NCBI RefSeq assembly: GCF_900113685.1
Contig: NZ_FOQG01000006.1
Coordinates: forward strand, 186,001 to 250,000
From: Nocardioides psychrotolerans
GTDB taxonomy: Bacteria > Actinomycetota > Actinomycetes > Propionibacteriales > Nocardioidaceae
Reading direction: 5' to 3'
DNA length: 64,000 nucleotides
Part shown: piece by piece, positions 19,915 through 23,793 of the stretch
Numbering within the stretch: position 1 is the stretch's first letter
How the letters are laid out: every line of letters begins with the position of its first letter
Made by a program: the position numbers and the translations under genes
Notes under the pieces: generated by a model
Database searches by the model: none
Told to the model about the DNA's origin: nothing
Seen by the model: the letters and a program-made list of their open reading frames with translations, nothing else

Positions 19915-22038
<2,124 letters not shown>

Positions 22039-22067
22039 GTCCGCCGGCGGGATCGCCTGGACGACGA

Positions 22068-22085
22068 ACTAGAACGCGTTCTAGT
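22068..22085 (+). promoter_or_regulatory. KstR-type operator (perfect 18-bp palindrome)
   Basis: ACTAGAACGCGTTCTAGT is perfectly self-complementary and fits the KstR consensus TnnAACnnGTTnnA at 22070-22083. KstR is the TetR repressor of cholesterol and steroid catabolism in mycobacteria and rhodococci. The site ends 9 nt before the ATG at 22095, so a bound repressor would block the start of transcription. No kstR gene lies in the window. Confidence 0.7.
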
Positions 22086-22094
22086 GTGACGGGC

Positions 22095-23141
22095 ATGAGC
22101 CAGCCCCTGCGCGTGATCCAGTGGACGACCGGCAACATCGGCCGGCGCTCGCTGCGCGCGATCCTCGCCCGCCCCGACCTCGAGCTGGTGGGCGTCTTCG
22201 CCCACGGCGCGGACAAGGTGGGCCTCGACGCGGCCGCGCTGTGCGACTGGCCGTCACCGACCGGCGTACGCGCGACTGACGACGTCGACGCGCTGCTGGC
22301 GCTGCGCCCGGACGCCTGCTGCTACAACCCGCTCTGGCCCAGCATCGACGACCTGGTGCGGCTCCTCGAGGCGGGCGTCAACGTCTGCTCGAGCGCCGCG
22401 TGGATCACGGGTGGCAAGCAGGCTCCTGCCGACCTCGACCGGGTCCGGGCTGCCTGCGCAGCGGGCGGCTCCACGATCTTCGGCAGCGGCGCCCACCCCG
22501 GGCTGACCAACATGGTGGGCATGGTGCTCAGTGGAGCCTGCGAGCGGGTCGACGAGATCCGGATCACCGAGTCGGTGGACTGCTCGACCTACGAGTCGGC
22601 CGGGACCCAGACGGCGATGGGTTTCTCACAGCCACCCGACACGCCGGGCCTGGCCGAGTCGGTGCGGGTCGAGAGCGAGGTGTTCGCCGAGTCGGCCGCG
22701 ATGATGGCCGACGCGATGGGCGTGACGCTGGACCGGATGAGCTTCGACGTGGAGTTCACGGTGGCGACCGCGGATTCCGACCTCGGCTTCATGCAGATCC
22801 CGGCCGGGACGGTGGCCGGGGTGATGGGCTACCACCGCGGCTGGGTGGGTGATCGCAACGTCGTGAGCGTCGGTTTCAACTGGACGATGGGCTCGCACGT
22901 CGTGCCACCCAAGCCGCTCGCGCACGGCCACGTCATCCAGGTCTTCGGCCTGCCCAACATGCGCACGGTCATCCACTGCCTGCCCCCGGTCGACTGGACC
23001 GAGGAGGGCTTCATGGGCCTCGGGATGATCTACACCGCGATGCCGGTCACCAACGCCGTCCCGGCCGTGGTCGCCGCCGCCCCCGGCATCGCGACCCTGG
23101 CGGACCTGCCGGTGGTCACGGGGCGGGTGGCGCACTTGTAA
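22095..23141 (+). CDS. Dihydrodipicolinate reductase-like NAD(P)-dependent dehydrogenase
   Basis: 348 residues. The Rossmann start is VIQWTTGNIGRRSLRAIL, followed by a domain with GSGAHPGLTNMVGMVL; this is the arrangement of DapB-like oxidoreductases related to 2,4-diaminopentanoate dehydrogenase. Many paralogues of unknown substrate occur in actinobacteria that degrade lipids and steroids. The KstR-like palindrome directly upstream suggests induction with steroid or sterol catabolism. No clear ribosome site (only GACGGG), so translation may be leaderless. The stop lies inside a hairpin. Function inferred only. Confidence 0.75.
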   Translation: MSQPLRVIQWTTGNIGRRSLRAILARPDLELVGVFAHGADKVGLDAAALCDWPSPTGVRATDDVDALLALRPDACCYNPLWPSIDDLVRLLEAGVNVCSSAAWITGGKQAPADLDRVRAACAAGGSTIFGSGAHPGLTNMVGMVLSGACERVDEIRITESVDCSTYESAGTQTAMGFSQPPDTPGLAESVRVESEVFAESAAMMADAMGVTLDRMSFDVEFTVATADSDLGFMQIPAGTVAGVMGYHRGWVGDRNVVSVGFNWTMGSHVVPPKPLAHGHVIQVFGLPNMRTVIHCLPPVDWTEEGFMGLGMIYTAMPVTNAVPAVVAAAPGIATLADLPVVTGRVAHL

Positions 23142-23307: not shown

Positions 23308-23793
23308 TCAACCGAGCTGGGCGTGGATCGCGCTGACGACGCGCTCGTCGAGCGGCTCGACGCGCGGACCGAAGCGGGCGACCACGGAGCCGTCAGCGGC
23401 GATGAGGAACTTCTCGAAGTTCCACGACACGTCACCGGCCGAGCCGCTCTCGTCGGGCGTCGTGATGAGCTCGGCGTAGAGCGCGTGCCGACCGTCGCCG
23501 TTGACGTCGATCTTCTCGCTCATCGGGAAGCTCACGCCGTAGGTGGCCGAGCAGAACTCCGCGATCTCCTCGGACGTGCCGGGCTCCTGCCCGCCGAACT
23601 GGTTGCACGGCAGCCCCACCACGGTGAAGCGGTCGCCGAGCTCGGAGGCCAGCTCCTCAAGGCCGGTGTACTGCGGCGTCAGGCCGCACTTGCTCGCGAC
23701 GTTGACCAGCAGCGCGGGCTTGCCCCTGGTCAGGTCGCCGAGCGTGCCGGGCGTTCCGTCGAGGCGGGCGAGGGGTAGGTCGAGGAGGGTCAT
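23308..23793 (-). CDS. Glutathione peroxidase family thiol peroxidase
   Basis: 161 residues. Peroxidatic Cys in NVASKCGLTPQYTGL (about residue 36), the conserved LPCNQFGGQEPG with Gln, and WNFEKFLI with the catalytic Trp and Asn. The Cys at CNQF is the usual resolving position of thioredoxin-dependent enzymes. Actinobacteria lack glutathione, so it probably uses thioredoxin or mycothiol-linked reductants to remove lipid or hydrogen peroxides. Single gene, convergent with its left neighbour. Confidence 0.92.
   Translation of the reverse strand: MTLLDLPLARLDGTPGTLGDLTRGKPALLVNVASKCGLTPQYTGLEELASELGDRFTVVGLPCNQFGGQEPGTSEEIAEFCSATYGVSFPMSEKIDVNGDGRHALYAELITTPDESGSAGDVSWNFEKFLIAADGSVVARFGPRVEPLDERVVSAIHAQLG

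Follow-up and report, generated by a model that had tools for sequence, protein, structure and literature searches.

Does a perfect palindrome in front of a dehydrogenase gene place that gene in the steroid regulon of KstR, and what would this say about the enzyme? The question is raised by a short intergenic region of the window, which is the whole 64-kb stretch of DNA analysed here. An earlier note, made from the letters, had described this palindrome as a KstR-type site 9 nt before an uncharacterised DapB-like gene, had tied the enzyme to steroid or sterol catabolism, and had proposed to look for kstR and list its sites in the rest of the genome. The features of the locus are the following:

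19915..22038, + strand: upstream ORF of 707 aa, RecQ-type helicase by eye
22058..22063, + strand: TGGACG, weak match to a -35 hexamer, 18 nt upstream of the -10-like one (by eye)
22068..22085, no strand: 18-bp perfect palindrome, predicted KstR operator (motif match, conservation)
22070..22083, no strand: operator core TNNAACNNGTTNNA, with the letters TAGAACGCGTTCTA; one of 39 such sites in the genome
22082..22087, + strand: TAGTGT, a TAnnnT hexamer taken as the predicted -10 element; overlaps the right operator arm and ends 7 nt before the ATG
22095..23141, + strand: P0001, a 348-aa PF19328 (DAP_DH_C) protein; its family suggests an NAD(P)-dependent oxidoreductase, and its mRNA is predicted to be leaderless
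23308..23793, - strand: downstream ORF of 161 aa, glutathione-peroxidase-like by eye, convergent to P0001

The palindrome and its surroundings

The 18-mer ACTAGAACGCGTTCTAGT is perfectly self-complementary and contains the KstR-type core, as had been claimed. The core pattern has a single match in the window, compared with a mean of 0.04 expected from 100 dinucleotide shuffles, four of which contained at least one match. The 18-mer remained the single match in the window when up to three mismatches were allowed. It is intergenic, starts 29 nt past the stop of the upstream ORF at 22038, and is separated by 9 nt from the ATG of P0001 at 22095, in agreement with the gap described before. The palindrome is a predicted but ordinary member of the known kind of KstR operators. 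The next ORF downstream is convergent, and P0001 therefore stands alone as a single-gene unit. By eye, the ORFs flanking P0001 are unlike steroid genes, which counts against a steroid link.

KstR and its predicted sites in the genome

The genome encodes one PF17925 protein, whose top hits in the PDB are structures of M. tuberculosis KstR (E about 8e-59). The proposed search for kstR in the genome thus found one such gene, and the refuting outcome named in the earlier note, a genome lacking kstR, was not observed. The stretch VALGTLYRYFPSK of this protein, which we take to be the KstR recognition helix, has one residue different from M. tuberculosis in the alignment. A site with one outer mismatch is located upstream of the gene itself. 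In a set of 28 of the 45 listed PF17925 matches, inspected over 600 nt upstream of the domain match, 27 have an upstream site (7 full and 20 with one outer mismatch); the only match lacking one, L086, also differs in the helix. In PMC1995591, EMSA showed binding of M. tuberculosis KstR to 12 of 13 such motifs, and an M. smegmatis delta-kstR strain showed de-repression of all genes tested at 11 motifs.

All matches to the core pattern were counted in the source assembly (4.52 Mb, 43 contigs), with the reversed pattern as a control, giving 39 matches versus 11. Flanks of up to 3 kb were inspected for each of the 39 sites, and genes were called there with a codon model that had been trained on the window. 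One or two exact TAGAAC/GTTCTA halves are present in 29 of the sites. Of these 29, 26 lie between genes and no more than 200 nt from a called start, which is true of 4 of the 10 sites with no exact half. Eight of the 39 sites lie inside called genes.

Thirty proteins neighbouring the genome sites were scanned against protein families. One site lies between a KstD gene (NF005882, above cut-off) and a divergent 2-keto-4-pentenoate-hydratase-like gene (under cut-off), presumably HsaE-like from its position. Another is found between the steroid 3-ketoacyl-CoA thiolase gene fadA5 (NF005889, above cut-off) and a divergent P450 gene, whose product matches CYP125 (PDB 5dqn, E 7e-162), and a further site precedes fadD8 (NF004838, above cut-off). 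Three oxidoreductases of F420-dependent type are also at sites (L028, L038, L053), and the Rv3520c type is among the site-adjacent F420-dependent ones. Neighbours that do not look steroid-related include a potassium/proton antiporter, an MFS transporter and FO synthase. The genome-wide listing proposed earlier therefore gave 39 sites, some of them on recognisable steroid genes.

The FO synthase gene, cofGH (F420 biosynthesis), has a full KstR-type site 51 nt before it (L024:3001-3014 = C20:136660-136673). A search of 24 genus genomes gave close cofGH orthologues (at least 81% identity) in 16 genomes, each of which carries kstR, and the full site precedes cofGH in two of these 16, our genome included. 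This case is a caution against over-reading single sites, as it illustrates that a KstR-like site can be unconserved.

At L019:3001-3014, the sequence TGCAACTAGTTGCA between two divergent genes fits the loose pattern with no TAGAAC half. It may be the site of another regulator, and it shows that the 14-bp pattern alone over-counts. The heptamer TTCTAGT occurs 32 times in 4.5 Mb, compared with 467 occurrences of the reversed letters. As it is so rare, and 17 of its 32 copies are arms of KstR-type sites, it is almost a signature of the regulon.

Conservation of the predicted operator before P0001 orthologues

Orthologues were collected in two sets. In 58 searched genomes, our own included, the full site precedes all seven orthologue rows (82-100% identity). 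The second set consists of named loci, the best 80 of 572 relatives, among which the closest orthologues belong to Nocardioides (88-89% identity); within these 80, the full site precedes all 13 Nocardioides/Marmoricola loci, with 10-11 nt from the 14-mer to the start codon. The two sets share five sequences, so that their 20 rows amount to 15 distinct Nocardioides-type orthologues, and all 15 keep the full site at about the same spacing.

The other 67 of the best 80 loci, outside Nocardioides and mostly mycobacterial (82-86% identical), have no full site in the 300 nt upstream. In three of them (L215, L224 and L233) a core with one or two outer mismatches is found, and the whole 461,756 nt of these loci contains one full-motif match, away from the upstream regions of the orthologues. 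The predicted KstR control of P0001 orthologues is therefore lineage-specific, and the function of the protein is in places independent of it. In a tree, a branch with 99/93 support separates the 14 Nocardioides-type rows from all others; four outgroup rows, among them L064, which had been read at a wrong offset, were erratic (branch lengths about 10), and the split was used while the root was not.

Some mycobacterial neighbourhoods deserve mention in their own right. At L221:28-4038 a KstD-like flavoprotein and an SDR-like ORF precede the P0001 orthologue, and at L194 and L226 the orthologue is near two acyl-CoA-dehydrogenase-like ORFs and an SDR-like ORF (by eye); none of the three has a KstR site.

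Predicted promoter anatomy

A TAnnnT hexamer overlapping the right arm of the operator, and ending 6-7 nt before the ATG, was present in 11/11 orthologue promoters examined (10 distinct, as L057 and L162 are identical). An AGGA/GGAG leader was found in none of the 20 Nocardioides-type rows, compared with 58 of the 67 non-Nocardioides loci. With a -10 hexamer this near the ATG and no Shine-Dalgarno-like leader, transcription would begin at the A of the ATG or at an adjacent base. The P0001 mRNA is probably leaderless, with its start within a nucleotide or two of the ATG; a generic sigma-70 scan reported no promoter at P0001, and this reading is therefore based on spacing and conservation. Genome-wide, 42 distances to a start were measured from sites that are intergenic and contain an exact half, and 12 of them are 9-12 nt. 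A similar arrangement is described in PMC5348764 for R. ruber kstD3, where KstR boxes surround a promoter close to the ATG and leaderless transcription was suggested; that promoter has two KstR boxes, versus one before P0001.

Identity of the enzyme

Only one family, PF19328 (DAP_DH_C), exceeds its cut-off in P0001 (56.9 bits vs 23.3). The dapB model TIGR00036 matches the N-terminal part with 19.2 bits, far under its cut-off of 122, and the NF040740 equivalog, the model applied for a native amine dehydrogenase / 2,4-diaminopentanoate dehydrogenase, gives 99.6 bits where 400 are required. The description of the gene as DapB-like fits loosely, in that this N-terminal match exists below the cut-off, but P0001 was rejected as a DapB and assigned to PF19328 instead.

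In a Foldseek search with the AlphaFold2 model of P0001 (mean pLDDT 88), the 18 best matches are all native amine dehydrogenases, with TM scores of 0.72-0.82 by query. Native amine dehydrogenases such as AmDH4 (6g1m/6g1h), CfusAmDH (6iau), MsmeAmDH (6iaq) and TtherAmDH (7xdu) have the predicted fold and PF19328 in common with P0001. They are 16-21% identical to it and possess a glutamate pair, which is replaced by Ala-Trp in P0001 and in the orthologues aligned with it. Trp or Val stands here in the remaining genus members of the alignment, and the pair is kept in the distant L080 and L081. Which glutamate of the pair is catalytic was placed by us from structure numbering. A candidate identity as an amine dehydrogenase was rejected, since the fold agrees in the predicted model but the catalytic glutamate (position P3) is missing.

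In PMC11164908, the glutamate pair of native amine dehydrogenases includes the catalytic residue at position P3. A G5 group, to which P0001 is most alike, mostly lacks the glutamate there, and its members showed no activity on the substrates of that study unless they keep this residue. From the family match and the model, P0001 is described here as a predicted NAD(P)-dependent oxidoreductase of the amine-dehydrogenase fold without the catalytic glutamate. We know of no activity assigned to the glutamate-less G5-type subgroup. Our best guess for the reaction is that, with no involvement of ammonia, hydride moves to or from a carbonyl (or C=C) on an intermediate derived from sterols.

KstR-type sites in the wider enzyme family

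The link to KstR is not confined to P0001 and its orthologues. After the four weakest matches were dropped (G034:C9 twice, G040 and G044), 74 family match rows were examined, 72 from the same genus plus G050 and G053, with site distances counted from the beginning of the protein match rather than from the start codon. Of the 72 same-genus matches, 42 have a full site in the 250 nt upstream and 12 have a site with one outer mismatch, eight of which are at or inside the gene start; the core was absent from this interval in 18. When the seven orthologues are left aside, 35 of 65 same-genus matches have the full site and 12 of 65 the site with one outer mismatch. The two rows from outside the genus, G050 and G053, have no full site. 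A family match is present in 24 of 37 genus genomes, all 24 of which have kstR, and of the remaining genomes three have kstR only, ten have neither, and none has the family only (Fisher p 8e-7, 37 genomes).

From a wider listing of the family, 29 loci were examined, 27 of them from outside the genus. In five of these 27, a site is followed by an SDR gene and then by the family gene, and in two others the site separates the family gene from an SDR gene of the opposite strand; in 20 of the 27 neither SDR arrangement with a site was present. The one of these two SDR proteins that was tested, that of L269, is closest to Rv2002. In our own genome an SDR of this same type (NF005873, above cut-off in L048 and L250) comes after the second family member. 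The second family gene at L040 was not counted as KstR-linked, as its 3' end faces the site.

A GAGAAC-type site with one outer mismatch stands at, or just inside, the coding start of eight family matches, L149, L150, L155, L156, L157, L158, L159 and L160. There, the in-frame translation of GAGAACNNGTTCYA is E-N-T/V/A-F-Y/H, and the operator may therefore be kept as coding sequence.

Regulation, function and alternative explanations

The palindrome is best explained as the operator of KstR, a TetR-family repressor of steroid catabolism. The operator would cover the spacer and the -10 region of the P0001 promoter, and in the absence of sterol a KstR dimer bound there would block RNA polymerase. 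Early sterol metabolites would bind KstR and release it, so that P0001 would be transcribed with the rest of the regulon. In PMC5348764, the ligands are early sterol metabolites, 3-oxo-4-cholestenoic acid or a CoA thioester. We consider it highly probable that KstR blocks a leaderless P0001 promoter and lets go on sterol metabolites, where binding, repression and the leaderless start are inferred. The 67 non-Nocardioides loci with no full site, the unconserved cofGH site, the 18 of 72 family matches with no core, the weak -35 and the negative sigma-70 scan count against this explanation.

An operator for another TetR-family regulator with a KstR-like motif, in which case the gene would answer to a different lipid, appears improbable. 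An MftR-related TetR protein is located near one of the 39 sites (L052; TIGR03968, 80.9 bits with a cut-off of 224.9), and in N. simplex further candidate steroid regulators are mentioned in PMC7593942 and PMC7807495. However, the genome has only one PF17925 protein, the same 14-bp pattern is found beside kstD, fadA5/cyp125 and (with one outer mismatch) kstR, and the N. simplex Lcin1 motif, TCCCGGT[C/G]ACCGGGA, differs. Far less credible still is a chance palindrome, or a terminator of the upstream ORF, in spite of the 29 nt between that ORF and the palindrome. Only 0.04 matches are expected in the window, a terminator search at the palindrome found none, and the palindrome is kept in 15/15 distinct orthologues while the upstream ORF varies (L173).

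The tie of the enzyme to steroid catabolism, as first proposed, is supported, with two qualifications. The presence of kstR, the sites at steroid genes and the 15/15 orthologues favour it; the enzyme, however, is a glutamate-less protein of the amine-dehydrogenase fold and no DapB, and the 67 non-Nocardioides loci lack the full site. The tie is therefore to the KstR regulon of this lineage, which alone is no proof of a steroid substrate, and the substrate of P0001 is the most strongly inferred part of our explanation. One reading, which we hold tentatively and at somewhat less than even chances, is that glutamate-less enzymes of the amine-dehydrogenase fold form a multi-member actinobacterial class in steroid catabolism, under KstR and often beside an SDR, performing non-amine hydride transfer on sterol-derived substrates, with P0001 as one member.

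At the level of function the main alternative, which we regard as rather unlikely, is compatible with KstR control: P0001 would be a general detoxifying or redox-balancing dehydrogenase recruited to the regulon, with no steroid-derived substrate. The mycobacterial orthologues (82-86%) without a site, the Shine-Dalgarno-like leaders of 58/67 non-Nocardioides loci, and the position of the 14 Nocardioides-type rows on one side of a branch (99/93), as expected from one regulatory capture, are consistent with recruitment. What argues against it is that other family members are KstR-linked, with the full site in 35/65 non-orthologous genus matches, that the site, an SDR gene and a family gene occur together in 5 + 2 of the 27 out-of-genus loci, and that the mycobacterial orthologue of L221 comes after a KstD-like flavoprotein and an SDR-like ORF.

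Relation to known systems

Actinobacterial steroid catabolism is relevant to industrial steroid production, the removal of environmental hormones, and tuberculosis. The operator itself is ordinary, and the useful part of the result is the tying of a glutamate-less enzyme subgroup to steroid catabolism. A repeated KstR link names a substrate class for a subgroup that has no assigned reaction, and gives a ready induction experiment.

A literature search found no paper joining KstR with 'dihydrodipicolinate reductase' or 'diaminopentanoate dehydrogenase', nor one joining 'dihydrodipicolinate reductase' with 'cholesterol catabolism' and 'steroid'. Within the same genus, the KstR and KstR2 regulons of Nocardioides simplex VKM Ac-2033D have been predicted, with many members sterol-induced, and the main texts (PMC7593942, PMC7807495) contain neither 'dihydrodipicolinate' nor 'diaminopentanoate'.

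The system described here resembles the Mycobacterium KstR regulon, as given by Kendall 2007 (PMC1995591), in the 14-bp palindrome, in a TetR protein matching M. tuberculosis KstR, in the shared FadD8, FadA5 and CYP125 target types, and in a site upstream of kstR (here with one outer mismatch). In the same paper, the motif between MSMEG_3515 and MSMEG_3516 of M. smegmatis, marked ND there, has a core identical to the site before the family gene of L269, and a mycobacterial relative may therefore already be present, unnamed, in that list.
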